Shown piece after piece: positions 23,791 to 29,253 of a stretch of DNA of 52,666 nucleotides (position 1 is its first letter; each line of letters starts with the position of its first letter). Source of the stretch: Anaerolineales bacterium (lineage in GTDB: Bacteria > Chloroflexota > Anaerolineae > Anaerolineales > Villigracilaceae); NCBI GenBank assembly GCA_014860745.1, contig JACZJC010000011.1:1-52666 (forward strand), read 5' to 3'. Below the pieces are notes generated by a model, which was not told where the DNA came from, made no database searches, and worked only from the letters and a program-made list of their open reading frames with translations. Both the position numbers and the translations under genes were made by a program.

Positions 23791-24237
23791 ATGTTTTCTA
23801 AAACACACAAATTTATATTCCTGTTGATCGTTATGGCGCTGGTAAGTACCACAGTATCAGCCTGTTCCACATCGAGTTCAAGTGAAGTCCATCTTGTTAT
23901 GGCGCCTATGGATCAGATGCCTATGGATGTTCAGTCCGCGCCTGTGGCGGTGCAGGAAGCCTATCAATTTAACATTGCCAATCCCGGCATCATGCAAGAT
24001 ATTCCCTGCTATTGTGGATGCGGCGACATCGGCCACGCCTCCAATTACGATTGCTATGCTTCTGATGTAGATGTGAATGGCAGCATCATCTTCGACAATC
24101 ATGCCCTCGGCTGCTCGATCTGTGTGGACATTACCCAGGATGTGATGCGCATGTTGCGGGATGGTAAAACTCCACAGGATGCCAGGGCATACATAGACAA
24201 CACCTACTCAAAATACGGACCTTCAAACATCCCTTAA
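23791..24237 (+). CDS. PCYCGC-motif lipoprotein
   Basis: This 148-residue exported lipoprotein (lipobox VSAC, Cys25) has the signature IPCYCGCGDIGH (Cys73, Cys75, Cys77), a further Cys88, and CSIC (Cys108, Cys111). It belongs to the PCYCGC-motif family, which has no firmly known function. Its seven extracytoplasmic Cys, including the lipid-anchor Cys, and a Met-rich stretch (MAPMDQMPMD) point to metal binding, most likely copper. It heads the operon with two CuA proteins and a polyferredoxin, where it could deliver copper to the CuA sites. Confidence 0.85.
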   Translation: MFSKTHKFIFLLIVMALVSTTVSACSTSSSSEVHLVMAPMDQMPMDVQSAPVAVQEAYQFNIANPGIMQDIPCYCGCGDIGHASNYDCYASDVDVNGSIIFDNHALGCSICVDITQDVMRMLRDGKTPQDARAYIDNTYSKYGPSNIP

Positions 24238-24241
24238 CCTC

Positions 24242-24685
24242 ATGCGCTTTCGTATCTCTCTTCTCCTCTTTGTAATGGCTGGACTGGTGGTGGCATTCGC
24301 GCCCTTGCCAGTTCCAGCCATTGCGCCTCAGGAGCGGACCTTTCAGATCGATGCGCACCAATTTGCATATTCCCCCTCCGAACTAAAAGTTAATGAGGGC
24401 GACACCGTGATCATCCAACTGGTCAGTTCAGATGTCGTACATGGCATTTATGTGGATGGCTACGATATTTCTGTCGAAGCCGATCCAGGTCAGTCTGCAA
24501 TCTTGACTTTCGTTGCCGACAAACCAGGCTCCTTCCGCTTTCGATGTAACGTCACCTGCGGTGCCATGCACCCGTTCATGATCGGCAAGTTGACGGTCGG
24601 CCCAAACAACTGGCTCTATCGTTCCATCGGTTTGGCAGCGTTGGCTGTGCTTGGTGTGACTGTATCCAGAAAACAAAAAGTGTAG
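24242..24685 (+). CDS. CuA-type cupredoxin, membrane anchored
   Basis: This 147-residue protein has a signal peptide or anchor at about 5-27, a cupredoxin domain, and a C-terminal helix at about 126-140. It carries the full CuA ligand set of cytochrome oxidase subunit II and NosZ: His67 (DVVHG), then Cys102-x3-Cys106-x3-His110-x2-Met113 in CNVTCGAMHPFM. CuA is a two-copper electron-transfer centre. No oxidase subunit I is nearby, so it probably passes electrons between the polyferredoxin that follows and another extracytoplasmic partner. It starts four bases after the PCYCGC gene. Confidence 0.88.
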   Translation: MRFRISLLLFVMAGLVVAFAPLPVPAIAPQERTFQIDAHQFAYSPSELKVNEGDTVIIQLVSSDVVHGIYVDGYDISVEADPGQSAILTFVADKPGSFRFRCNVTCGAMHPFMIGKLTVGPNNWLYRSIGLAALAVLGVTVSRKQKV

Positions 24686-24692
24686 TCTTATC

Positions 24693-26024
24693 ATGGCGAA
24701 GATCGAACTTACCCGTATCCCCTTTATAAAGAACGCCCTCAAAAGCCGTTACCCGCAATTGGCAGTCTTTATTGTGATGCTGATCGGATACATCTTTGCC
24801 ATCCTTGCAGGACTCATCGGGACTCCAGTTGGTAGTCATAACTTTAGCATTGTCTTTGTGTGGATCGCATGGTGGGCGATCCTGATCCTGGTCGCGGTTC
24901 CCTTCTTCGGACGTGGCTGGTGTGCGGTTTGTCCGATCCCGCTGCCAGGTGAGTGGTTACAGCGCGGCGCAGTCTTGAGTCCTCCCGACAAAAGACCGAA
25001 ATGGCTCAATCTCCGCGTGCCAAAGATGTTCCGTAATATCTGGTTGCAAAATATTTCATTTCTTCTTCTTGCTCTCTTCAGCAGCGTACTGCTTACGACC
25101 CCGAATATCACCGGCGTTGTGCTTGCCACCATGCTCTTTGCCGCTATTAGACTTAGCACAGTCTTTGAACGCCGCGCCTTCTGCCGCTATCTCTGTCCGG
25201 TTGGTGGATTTATCGGTCTGTATTCCCAAACCGCCCCCATCGAATTGCGCATCAAAGATAAGCAGGTCTGTGTTACTTGTGAAGGCAAGCCCTGTTATAA
25301 CGGTTCGCAAGCTGGGTACGGCTGTCCGTGGGACGTCTTCCCCGGCGGCTTGACCAAGAACACCTATTGCGGCTTGTGCATGGAATGTATCCGCACCTGT
25401 CCGCACGATAATATCGCGGTCAACCTGCGTCCCTTCTCGGCTGATCTCGCCAAACCTTCCACCCGCATGGACGAAGCCTTCAAAGCCTTCATCATGCTCG
25501 GCTCGGCAATGATTTACGCGGGCATCCTGCTCGGTCCGTGGGGCATACTCAAAGACGCGGCATACAATGTCGGCACCGACGCATGGTTCACTTATGTTGC
25601 CGCTTTTCTTGCCATCATCTTCGTTGCTCTGCCTGGCTTGTTCACGGTTGGTATTCTACACACGAAAAACACCTTGCCGCTCAAACAACGTTTTGCATCG
25701 CTCTCAACCGCCCTCATTCCATTGGGTTTGATGTTCTGGGTTGCATTCAGTCTGTCCTTCGTTCTCACCAACGCCTCCTACATCCTCACCGCCCTCTCCG
25801 ATCCGCTGGGCCTTGGCTGGAATCTTTTTGGCACAGCGAATGCAACATGGCAACCGATGCTCACCTCCATGCTTGCGCCCGCGCAAACCCTGGCGCTGGT
25901 CGGCGGCTTGATCTGGTCTGCCCGCACTGCCCAAAAAGCCGCAGGGGAAGTGAAAGTTTCACCCATCCCAGTGATCGTATATTGTTTTATCGCCACATGT
26001 CTCATGCTCTGGTTATTACTATGA
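24693..26024 (+). CDS. second NapH-like membrane polyferredoxin
   Basis: This 443-residue paralogue of the 21955 protein has the same layout: GWCAVCPIPLPGEW near residue 72, then FCRYLCPVGG. Two ferredoxin clusters follow, CVTCEGKPC and CGLCMECIRTCP, and then five or so further helices. It is placed between two CuA proteins, eight bases after the first, and overlaps the second by four bases. The arrangement implies an electron path from quinol through its iron-sulfur centres to CuA. Which terminal acceptor is served is not shown by the sequence. Confidence 0.87.
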   Translation: MAKIELTRIPFIKNALKSRYPQLAVFIVMLIGYIFAILAGLIGTPVGSHNFSIVFVWIAWWAILILVAVPFFGRGWCAVCPIPLPGEWLQRGAVLSPPDKRPKWLNLRVPKMFRNIWLQNISFLLLALFSSVLLTTPNITGVVLATMLFAAIRLSTVFERRAFCRYLCPVGGFIGLYSQTAPIELRIKDKQVCVTCEGKPCYNGSQAGYGCPWDVFPGGLTKNTYCGLCMECIRTCPHDNIAVNLRPFSADLAKPSTRMDEAFKAFIMLGSAMIYAGILLGPWGILKDAAYNVGTDAWFTYVAAFLAIIFVALPGLFTVGILHTKNTLPLKQRFASLSTALIPLGLMFWVAFSLSFVLTNASYILTALSDPLGLGWNLFGTANATWQPMLTSMLAPAQTLALVGGLIWSARTAQKAAGEVKVSPIPVIVYCFIATCLMLWLLL

Positions 26025-26992
26025 ACCGCTCCGAACTTATCTCCCGTTTTCTGATCGTCACAGGAATTCTCCTCTCGGTTGGCGCTCCATTATTCCTTTG
26101 GGCACGCACGCCTTTGATTCACGCGCGGATGGCGGAGGACGGTGGCTGGAATCCCGATATCATTCAAGCGGAAGTTGGCAAGCCCCTTCATCTAAAGATC
26201 ACTTCCGATGATGTTGTACATGGCTTTGCAGTCGGTCAAATGGAGATGCAAAGTGTGGATGTCCTCCCTGGCAAAGTTACCGACATCACATTGAACTTCG
26301 ACAAGCCCGGGATCTATACCTTCTTCTGCACGCGCTGGTGTGGACTCAATCACTGGCGGATGCGTGGCACGATAGAAGTCAGCGGCTCATCCTCGGACCC
26401 CGAGCCTGCTTCATCGCTTCTCTACGTTTCCCTCGACCTCGACCTTGACGCTCCGCACGACGCGCCTGTTGTCCCAAATGGAAAGCCTTCGGCGACCAAC
26501 GGTCAATTACTGGAAACCAATTTACCAATTGACCTGTCTGCTGAATACTATCGTTCTCATTCACCCTATCAGGTTTTCAATGAATTGTCCGCAACAACAC
26601 TGACCGAATCCCAACGCTGGGATGTGGTCGCCTATCTTTGGCAGACCAACACGACATCCACGTCCCTCGTCAACGGTAACCAACTTTATGCCCAGAATTG
26701 CGCCGCCTGTCATGGGGAAAACGGCGCAGGAGATGGTGTTTTTGCCGACGATCTGGCGGCAGCAGGCGAGTCTTCCATGCAAACGATGGAGGGTGCAATG
26801 GATATGGTGATGCAAAGCCCTGTGAATTTCACCGATCCCCGACGAATGCTTGGTGCAAGCCCTGCCTTATTACAAGGGAAAATCTTACGGGGCGGCATGG
26901 GCACAGGCATGCCCATGTGGGGTTCGATCTTCACCGAAGAACAAATCTGGGATCTAGTCGCGTACATCTATTCGTTCCAGTTTGAATATTAA
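26021..26992 (+). CDS. CuA-cytochrome c fusion protein
   Basis: This 323-residue protein is anchored by an N-terminal helix (about 10-28). It has a CuA cupredoxin (His67, Cys103, Cys107, His111, Met114 in CTRWCGLNHWRM), a Pro/Ser-rich linker, and a class I cytochrome c domain with CAACH (Cys227, Cys230, His231). Met residues near GMGTGMPMW could supply the sixth ligand. A CuA next to a haem in one chain is known from caa3-type oxidase subunit II, but no catalytic subunit is present here. ATG 26021 overlaps the polyferredoxin stop; a much longer frame upstream is just the shadow of that gene. Confidence 0.88.
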   Translation: MNRSELISRFLIVTGILLSVGAPLFLWARTPLIHARMAEDGGWNPDIIQAEVGKPLHLKITSDDVVHGFAVGQMEMQSVDVLPGKVTDITLNFDKPGIYTFFCTRWCGLNHWRMRGTIEVSGSSSDPEPASSLLYVSLDLDLDAPHDAPVVPNGKPSATNGQLLETNLPIDLSAEYYRSHSPYQVFNELSATTLTESQRWDVVAYLWQTNTTSTSLVNGNQLYAQNCAACHGENGAGDGVFADDLAAAGESSMQTMEGAMDMVMQSPVNFTDPRRMLGASPALLQGKILRGGMGTGMPMWGSIFTEEQIWDLVAYIYSFQFEY

Positions 26993-27007
26993 GAATAAGG
27001 AGACTCT

Positions 27008-27463
27008 ATGAGCAAAAAACATAGGAGACAGAAACAAAAGTTTCCGTGGATGTTTCTGGCGCTGGGCGGGGTGTTCGTTGCCCTTGCCGTATTCCTGTTC
27101 GCACGCCAAGGCGGTGACGGCGGCGGCACGCCATCCATAGCGGTGGATCAGCAGAGGATCGATTATGGCGATGTAAAGTTTGGTGTCAATAAAACTTTTG
27201 CGATCAAAGTCACCAACACAGGGGATGGCACATTGCGACTCAAGGAAGAACCGTATATCGAAATTGTCGAGGGATGCTGACCCCCCGAATTGACCATCGG
27301 TTCGATGGTACTCAAACCCGGTGAAAGCACAATTGTTGAGTCTAGTGTCTTTATGATGCATGAAGGCATGGACGGTCCACATAACTTTGCAGTCCATCTT
27401 AAAACGAACGACCCAAACAATTCTGATTTGGTTGTGAACGTATTGTCCAATTGGATACCGTAA
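27008..27463 (+). CDS. DUF1573-like protein, candidate selenoprotein (TGA at codon 91)
   Basis: One frame of 152 codons is broken only by TGA at 27278-27280. Reading TGA as selenocysteine gives a 151-residue protein: an N-terminal helix (13-32), then a DUF1573-type beta domain with EGC-U-PPELTIG (Cys90, Sec91), MMHEGMDGPHNF and KTNDPN. From my knowledge of the family, homologues often have Cys-Cys-Pro-Pro here, so Sec replaces the second Cys. A hairpin with a 7-bp perfect stem follows, at a distance suited to a bacterial SECIS. A nonsense mutation is the alternative. It is the last gene of the CuA operon. Confidence 0.72.
27278..27309 (+). promoter_or_regulatory. SECIS-like hairpin after the DUF1573 TGA
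   Basis: TGA (27278-27280) is followed by ACCATCG (27293-27299) pairing perfectly with CGATGGT (27303-27309) around loop GTT. Nineteen bases separate the TGA from the loop, and the loop begins with G. Both points meet the usual description of bacterial SECIS elements. Confidence 0.6.
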
Positions 27464-27475
27464 GATCACAAGGAT

Positions 27476-27519
27476 CAAAACGGCGGCGAGACTGTACAAA
27501 CCTCGCCGCCGTTTTGGTT
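27476..27519 (+). terminator. terminator of the CuA operon
   Basis: CAAAACGGCGGCGAG (27476-27490) pairs perfectly with CTCGCCGCCGTTTTG (27502-27516). It carries A's before and T's within the stem, so it can work in both directions. Confidence 0.88.
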
Positions 27520-27630: not shown

Positions 27631-29253
27631 ATGAAGGGTTTTCAAATGTCTGGCAGAGCAGTGATCTACATCCGTACCTCTTCAGAATCACAAGGGGCAA
27701 ATTCCAGCCCAATTGAGCAGGAAACCGATTGCTTGCATCTGGCTCAAGAAAAGGGATTGCAGGTGGTTCGTGTTTATCGCGACGTGGAAAAATATCGGGT
27801 GGGCAACAAACTGGTCGAACCTTCGGGCAGTCGTTCAGATCGACCCGGTTTATTAGCCATGCTCAAAGATGCCGCCAGAGACGAATTCGATGTCATTCTT
27901 GCCTGGCGCGAAGACAGACTGTATCGTGGAATACGAGCGATGTTGACGGTCTTGGAAACCGTCCAAGACTATAAGATCGAAATCTTGTTGGCAAAAGAAC
28001 ACTTCGATCCCAAGATCGCTCCCATCCGTGCCTGGGTAGCCCAAATGGAATTGGAAGGGATGAAAGAACGGATGACAATGGGAGTGATTGCACGGCTCAA
28101 AGCCGGCAAAGCAAACACAGGACAGGATCGCTACGGATATGTCCGAATTGGCGAACAGATCCACATCCTGGAAGAAGAAACAAAATGGGTACGTCAAATC
28201 TTCGCATGGTACATCCAAAAAACTCCCCTCATGCAAATTCGACAACGCCTGATCGCTGCCAATGCTCCACAAAAGGGGAGCAGCATTCCCCGACACATCC
28301 AATGGTCCCGGTCCAGCATTCAGGCTATACTCCGGTCTGCCAGAGAATATGCTTATGGTTTCAAAACATATTCCCGTGCAGGACAGACCTTCCAAATCCC
28401 GGTTACACCCATCATCGATATACCCACCTATGAATTGTTTGTGAAGATGCGAGAAGAAAACAAAACCTACCCAAAACACCGCAGGCAAAATGATTACCTG
28501 CTATCCGGGCATCTGAAATGTGCCTGCAATCTGACCTGGCGGGCACGCACCGCAACCCATCGCAACAGCCGCAAGGGGGAGTGGGTGAAGCGCAAAACCC
28601 CGATCAGTACCTATTTCTGCCCACAACCTCATAAGGAACTCAGACCGCCAGAATGTCCCAAATCCGTGAGCGCCAAACGAGCAGAAACACAGGTCTGGGA
28701 AAAATTATATGATTTCATCATGAACCCGGAATTCCTGCATGCACAAGCCAGAGACCTGGTCAAGCAACTCCAGCAAAGGTATGAACACCTACAAAAAGAT
28801 CGGGGACAGATTCTTGAAGAACTGGAAAAAGAGTCCACCAAGCGTCAGCTAGTGATCACGGAAGCCCGCAAAAAAATGAGGGCGGATGCCAAATTTGATG
28901 CGCGGATGCGTGAACTGTATGCAATAGAAGGACGATTGAAGCGCAGGTTGACTGCCCTGGAACAAGAGATGGACACCTATGCCAGATTGGATTGGGAAGA
29001 AAAGGTCAAGGGTTATGTGATGGACCTTCAGGCAGGGATCATAGAATTGAACAAAGCTATCCCCAAAACTCCCGAAGAGCAACACCGTGTCTTTTTGATG
29101 AAAAAGCAACTGGTAGACGAGCTGATAGCCGAAGCGACGATTGATGGCAAGCGAGACATTCAGGTGGAGTTTCGAGCCAAAATCATGGATCAGGAAGTGA
29201 GAAAAAAACTACTGGATTTTCCGAATGGTGGTGAAATTGTAGCTCGGCTGTAA
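27631..29253 (+). CDS. large serine recombinase
   Basis: This 540-residue site-specific recombinase has a resolvase catalytic domain at about 8-150 (catalytic Ser in YIRTSSESQ, with LAWREDRLYRG further on), a recombinase domain at about 165-270, a zinc-ribbon region (HLKCAC, then CPQ and PPECP), and a long coiled coil at about 365-460. This is the layout of phage and ICE integrases that use short att sites. ATG 27646 (MSGRAVIY) is an alternative start. It stands alone at the right edge of the copper island, facing away from it, and may once have mobilised it. Confidence 0.88.
   Translation: MKGFQMSGRAVIYIRTSSESQGANSSPIEQETDCLHLAQEKGLQVVRVYRDVEKYRVGNKLVEPSGSRSDRPGLLAMLKDAARDEFDVILAWREDRLYRGIRAMLTVLETVQDYKIEILLAKEHFDPKIAPIRAWVAQMELEGMKERMTMGVIARLKAGKANTGQDRYGYVRIGEQIHILEEETKWVRQIFAWYIQKTPLMQIRQRLIAANAPQKGSSIPRHIQWSRSSIQAILRSAREYAYGFKTYSRAGQTFQIPVTPIIDIPTYELFVKMREENKTYPKHRRQNDYLLSGHLKCACNLTWRARTATHRNSRKGEWVKRKTPISTYFCPQPHKELRPPECPKSVSAKRAETQVWEKLYDFIMNPEFLHAQARDLVKQLQQRYEHLQKDRGQILEELEKESTKRQLVITEARKKMRADAKFDARMRELYAIEGRLKRRLTALEQEMDTYARLDWEEKVKGYVMDLQAGIIELNKAIPKTPEEQHRVFLMKKQLVDELIAEATIDGKRDIQVEFRAKIMDQEVRKKLLDFPNGGEIVARL

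Follow-up and report, generated by a model that had tools for sequence, protein, structure and literature searches.

A predicted selenoprotein with a Cys-Sec pair encoded beside CuA-type protein genes in an Anaerolineales bacterium

The window analysed here, a stretch of 52,666 nucleotides, includes a gene at the end of a set for CuA-type proteins in which an otherwise open frame is interrupted once, and the question is whether the TGA concerned terminates the protein or is read as selenocysteine (Sec). Translation of this gene (Table 1) gave 151 codons and TAA with a single internal TGA at codon 91, in the segment VEGC*PPELTIG, confirming the layout on which an earlier note, made from the sequence alone, had based a candidate selenoprotein. 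Gene prediction under the standard code would truncate the product after residue 90. As judged by comparison of relatives, and with no Sec peptide or expression data to hand, we are highly confident that this is a true selenoprotein gene in which TGA is read as Sec. The inverted repeat that follows the gene is, from its sequence, probably the terminator of the operon.

Table 1. Positions in the window of the predicted selenoprotein gene, its local features and the genes preceding it
Feature	Position	Strand	Remark
PCYCGC protein (PF13798), commonest neighbour of Cys forms	23791..24237	+	
Small CuA-type protein (COX2 / Cupredoxin_1), CuA1	24242..24685	+	
Membrane Fer4_5 protein, weak NapH-type similarity	24693..26024	+	
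CuA domain fused to cytochrome c (COX2 + Cytochrom_C)	26021..26992	+	ATG overlaps preceding stop; own stop at 26992
AAGGAG, likely ribosome-binding site	26997..27002	+	read off sequence
Predicted selenoprotein gene	27008..27463	+	ATG at 27008; 151 residues; TGA codon 91 predicted to be read as Sec; TAA stop
Predicted N-terminal membrane helix codons (residues 14-33)	27047..27106	+	AlphaFold model
Predicted Sec codon TGA, immediately 3' of Cys codon (GC-U-PP)	27278..27280	+	
Putative SECIS hairpin ACCATCG-GTT-CGATGGT	27293..27309	+	conserved core = six outer pairs
Codons 117-125 (M-H-x2-M-x-G-P-H)	27356..27382	+	alignment, 37 diverse copies
14-bp inverted repeat, T-rich 3' arm	27477..27515	+	read off sequence, no tool scan

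Codon 91 in relatives of the gene

Matches were obtained in 25 of the 61 genomes first searched, and 33 of the 35 matches carried one TGA, the two without it being short pieces. A profile search matched 83 of 396 genomes of the class, 80 of 85 loci were kept from a GTDB scan, and 21 of 400 genomes searched across the phylum matched, nine of them outside the class. When the fetched loci were read and identical copies collapsed, 106 distinct copies with a GC?P motif were obtained; many profile matches beyond 30 loci are not counted here. Codon 91 was TGA in 93 of these, TGC in eight and TGT in five, and nothing else. One of the 93 is the N-terminal piece of a frameshifted copy (L167), the C-terminal piece of which (>60 bits, no GC?P motif) was left out, as were DUF1573 relatives at ≤60 bits. 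The genome concerned (G021, a single contig; G021:C1:4125077-4125534) holds an intact copy of the gene as well as the broken one.

As the same TGA occurs in 93 distinct copies, an assembly error, which would have refuted the earlier note, cannot explain it. The Cys-Cys-Pro-Pro form that the note gave for related proteins does exist, 13 of the 106 copies having Cys at codon 91, and TGA alternates with TGC or TGT in the alignment of orthologues. In a tree of 104 rows built with the trait residue masked, seven Sec/Cys changes were required, at least three of which are forced by well-supported branches; the alignment has few columns and many forks are unresolved. Sec and Cys copies share one contig in two genomes (G187:C380, L150, and G303:C338, L157) and are neighbours in the former. 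The Sec form was also found in L133, L137, L148 and L086, whose records carry the labels Acidobacteria, Actinomycetes, Acidimicrobiia and Pseudomonadota; these are contigs of MAGs and may have been misbinned.

Under the standard reading of the genetic code, the TGA would be a real stop, leaving a 90-residue protein followed by a dead tail. However, the family character that the earlier note had seen beyond the TGA is retained: in an alignment of 37 diverse copies, seven of them Cys forms, the invariant columns include P92, P93, M117, M121, H125 and W149 in addition to G89, C90 and Sec/Cys91, and H118 and H130 are nearly invariant. Furthermore, the part after the TGA is kept in all of the 93 TGA copies except the frameshifted one, the Cys versions read through, and the hairpin considered below is kept only with TGA. 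A real stop is hence very improbable. Comparison of the copies demonstrates, within the limits of that approach, that UGA recoding is under selection and that Sec/Cys exchange occurs; that Sec is actually made in the cell is an inference.

The downstream hairpin and the Sec machinery

The earlier note had placed a perfect 7-bp hairpin with G at the start of its loop 19 nt after the TGA. The hairpin and its loop-initial G were found as described, and the distance is right for the loop G but not for the stem, which starts 12 nt past the TGA. A stem of six pairs, always at the same position, was complete in 80 of the 86 distinct Sec sequences and lacked one pair in the remaining six, whereas none of 13 Cys sequences formed all six (five pairs in one, four in one, three in two, two in six and one in three). 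Synonymous recoding of the same peptides would give all six pairs with a mean probability of 0.09. The third-position bases of codons 5 to 9 after the TGA (C, C, T, G, G) were invariant in all 86 Sec sequences, as were the loop G and T. In one Cys form (L134), the peptide TIGSM is identical, the codons differ and the stem is absent.

For 60 distinct sequences, 98.3% of cells were paired as compared with 88.7% in shuffles, and 54 cells were changed on both sides as compared with 19.2. None of 500 shuffles reached the observed pairing, double-sided changes or covariation score, but the counts of double-change pairs and of pair types were the same as in shuffles (470 and 489 of 500 as high, respectively). 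Sliding the stem partner by 1-3 columns left just 2-66% paired. Three stem pairs covary, and the same six pairs were predicted by RNAalifold. The 12 loci from outside the class, which took no part in the definition of the stem, provided 11 rows for this check (L200 gave none); these 11 copies, from nine genomes, formed six pairs in nine cases and five in two, and in five of the 11 a C-G pair that had previously been invariant was replaced by A-U or G-C. The window RNA folds as the hairpin at -8.7 kcal/mol when 23 nt are taken, with 3 of 200 shuffles as good, and a competing hairpin is the minimum-energy fold when 43 nt are taken (z -1.16). An Rfam scan of the window gave no match. By comparison, not by experiment, the hairpin is a bacterial SECIS element.

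The genome from which the window derives (82 contigs, 98% complete) encodes SelA (PF03841, 442.8 bits), SelB (TIGR00475, 347.3 bits, over the cut-off), a tRNA-Sec (68.5 bits against a gathering score of 47; anticodon tca by ARAGORN) and two SelD proteins over the cut-off, so that the search for selA, selB, selC and selD proposed in the earlier note, where failure would have refuted a selenoprotein, was answered in full. Both SelD genes (L170 and L171, on contigs C41 and C2 of genome G000) include one in-frame TGA, each with a 7-bp hairpin 26 nt downstream whose loop region, GGTTC, is identical to that of the hairpin studied here. Thus, a well-known selenoprotein gene of the same genome also needs TGA as Sec.

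The presence of this machinery is only a weak discriminating test between genomes. SelA is so common in the class Anaerolineae (318 of 396 genomes) that its co-occurrence with the Sec form says little; compared by eye, it was present in 56 of the 64 genomes of the class that carry a Sec form (the 27-residue scrap of G340 not counted) and in two of five Cys-only genomes. In the eight Sec-form genomes where a SelA match at E ≤ 1e-60 was missing, seven have tRNA-Sec and/or SelD, and G390 (75% complete) had neither a tRNA-Sec nor a SelD match. Two Cys-only genomes, G302 and G308, possess SelA and tRNA-Sec. No SelA, tRNA-Sec or SelD match was found in G380, a Cys-only genome in a single contig, which fits the Sec reading but is one case.

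A full-length protein would likewise result if the TGA were read by another route, namely reassignment to Trp or Cys, near-cognate readthrough or a suppressor tRNA. Code reassignment was rejected because TGA ends other genes, including the orthologues L006 and L011, and the tRNA-Sec with anticodon tca, the covarying hairpin at a fixed distance and the exchange only with Cys point to Sec. These other routes are barely credible. Reading as Sec would proceed in the usual manner: SelB would bring Sec-tRNA(UCA) to the UGA at codon 91, the SECIS hairpin 12 nt downstream marking this UGA, and recoding would yield the full-length protein of 151 residues, a scheme that rests on comparison and not on biochemistry. 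The features by which bacterial selenoproteins are recognised, an in-frame TGA with conserved 3' sequence, the Sec machinery, Cys homologues (13 of 106) and a selected hairpin shortly past the TGA, were all met, the last by comparative tests that did not include bSECISearch. The candidate is therefore supported by the Sec machinery, by the alternation of TGA with Cys codons and by a covarying hairpin that is not kept in Cys forms.

The predicted protein, its gene neighbourhood and possible function

The AlphaFold model consists of a helix at residues 14-33 and a beta domain (block pLDDT 94-98); a single membrane helix at the N-terminus and an Ig domain of the ASH/PapD-like type are predicted for the product. 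The basic N-terminus before the helix suggests that the Ig domain lies outside the cell. From the strand order in the model, GCUPP is inferred to occupy the CD loop and MMHEGM the EF loop, at the same end of the sandwich. Structure matches were 2qsv (Z 13.2, rmsd 2.1, 103 aligned), VesC (Z 11.7) and a HYDIN-type chain (Z 11.2), and Foldseek also matched ASH/PapD-like Ig domains. Sequence matches to HYDIN in the PDB were sums of many weak stretches and were excluded as evidence. No Pfam or NCBIfam model was passed at its cut-off: DUF1573 (PF07610) scored 19.9 bits against a gathering score of 26.1, the HYDIN/CFA65/VesB-like Ig model (PF22544) 24 against 25.5, and the only NCBIfam match, choice_anch_D, 21.2 against 45. 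The description of the protein as DUF1573-like in the earlier note is hence a fair statement of likeness, but membership of that family is not established.

The CuA setting given in the earlier note was borne out, as two genes upstream of the selenoprotein gene match COX2 (CuA domain) over the Pfam cut-off and a CuA neighbourhood recurs around relatives. Upstream in the window are genes for DoxX, YtkA, Fer4_5, HMA, PCYCGC, COX2/cupredoxin, Fer4_5 and COX2 with cytochrome c, and further upstream for a P-type ATPase with HMA domains, VKOR, a DsbA-like protein and a DsbD_TM protein. Homologues of window genes were counted within 8 kb of 83 Sec and 15 Cys copies (98 in all), a set that includes short contigs and some records in which the same contig occurs twice. 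The CuA/cytochrome protein was near 73 of the 83 Sec and 8 of the 15 Cys copies, CuA1 near 62 and 9 (cross-matches to the CuA/cytochrome protein included), the second Fer4_5 protein near 61 and 9, and PCYCGC near 65 and 14, respectively. Three gene orders occur, the selenoprotein gene standing at the end, at the start, or between CuA1 and Fer4_5, and in some loci PCYCGC alone remains beside it. At one locus (L125), matches to CopA and rhodanese lie close by, together with PCYCGC.

A serine recombinase gene (Resolvase, Recombinase; 27631-29253) lies directly 3' of the gene in the window, and a recombinase match is also found just downstream in L071, L086 and L169. TGA at Cys positions of neighbour proteins was seen only in scattered cases, in other loci. 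DsbA-like relatives in L117, L163 and L165 have TGA (FQ*P.C) where the first Cys of CPFC stands in the window protein and, on this alignment, are probably selenoproteins; in the PCYCGC proteins of L162 and L165, TGA takes the place of a later Cys in the alignment (as in LG*SIC), and these are probably Sec forms of the PCYCGC family. A CopA-like ATPase relative in L127 has TGA instead of the second Cys of its CPC motif.

Given the gene set and the soft ligands, a copper-linked role was inferred, in which the selenoprotein would serve the CuA-type proteins of the set; with no Cu-binding data, the case for such a role is evenly balanced. The Ig domain would bear the Cys-Sec pair (GCUPP) and the conserved M-H-x2-M-x-G-P-H loop, and either these soft ligands would hold Cu(I) and pass it on to the CuA-type proteins, or the protein would reduce cysteine pairs or Cu(II) ahead of CuA assembly. 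Carrier and reductase cannot be separated. Evidence against a copper role is that the source genome has two Sco-family genes elsewhere, that the protein matches no copper-chaperone family in Pfam or NCBIfam (neither Sco nor PCuAC was among its Pfam matches up to E = 1), and that some copies are accompanied by PCYCGC only. Replacement of a missing Sco was rejected, as two Sco-family genes are present. It is tentatively suggested, as an unlikely but possible refinement, that Sec is a direct Cu(I) ligand, in a site built from the Cys-Sec pair and the M-H-x2-M-x-G-P-H loop, and that the Ig-like protein is a membrane-anchored carrier loading the CuA proteins of its gene set. If true, this would be a selenium-based metallochaperone spread over Chloroflexota.

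The frequency of PCYCGC near both Cys and Sec copies, and its position as the sole partner in some loci, would agree with thiol redox activity without direct copper contact, the selenoprotein reducing or isomerising disulfides of PCYCGC or other secreted proteins, and DsbA-, DsbD-, VKOR- or rhodanese-like genes are near in the window and some other loci. However, CuA/cytochrome, CuA1 and Fer4_5 matches lie beside most Sec copies, and the conserved Met and His residues are inferred to be more in keeping with a metal site than with a plain thiol site. Purely thiol-based activity is a real possibility, albeit one that we are inclined to doubt.

Comparison with known systems

The predicted protein shares its fold with the ASH/PapD-like Ig domains of HYDIN, OCRL, VesC and 2qsv, at low identity (21% to 2qsv, 17% to VesC and 10% to HYDIN), and to our knowledge none of these has a Sec or copper role. 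Sco and PCuAC copper chaperones are analogues in so far as the studied protein, too, is proposed to serve CuA sites outside the membrane, but it has no Pfam match to either.

The closest known selenoprotein is that of DUF1573 (PF07610), with the motif UGC, listed in PMC9312934 and PMC13188914; the string 'Chloroflex' is absent from the main text of both. The two proteins are alike in the DUF1573-like Ig domain, in a Sec near Gly-Cys and in a related profile, and differ in the motif, which is GC-U-PP in the protein studied here. Alignment to DUF1573 neighbours gave two registers, in which Sec falls on G or T of CGCT and not on the first Cys, and exact placement of Sec on the CGC motif failed. 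In L122 and L134, the locus that holds the selenoprotein gene or its Cys form also encodes a DUF1573-like protein having a CGC motif. Members with Sec are known in the CYCXC / PCYCGC family (PF13798, NF041379). PCYCGC is a different protein, although it is encoded beside the studied gene in most loci; in the window its gene encodes Cys at every such position, and its score of 63.5 is below the NF041379 cut-off of 90. None of the nine new selenoprotein families reported in PMC12013277 is like the studied family, and its authors' method can, as noted there, miss selenoproteins without Cys homologues.

The literature search found no report of the studied family, but Haft and Tolstoy 2025 and Deng et al. 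2026 were outside its scope, and an earlier mention is therefore not excluded; no NCBIfam model (June 2026) names the family. The natural Sec/Cys exchanges, the two genomes with both forms on a single contig and the recurring gene set make this a good system for the question of Sec versus Cys. The work adds a selenoprotein family, mostly from Chloroflexota, and links selenium to CuA-type copper proteins, which, if the copper reading is true, points to an undescribed role of selenium in bacterial copper handling. As compared with known systems, we rate it as the usual recoding mechanism in a new selenoprotein family with an unusual copper setting.
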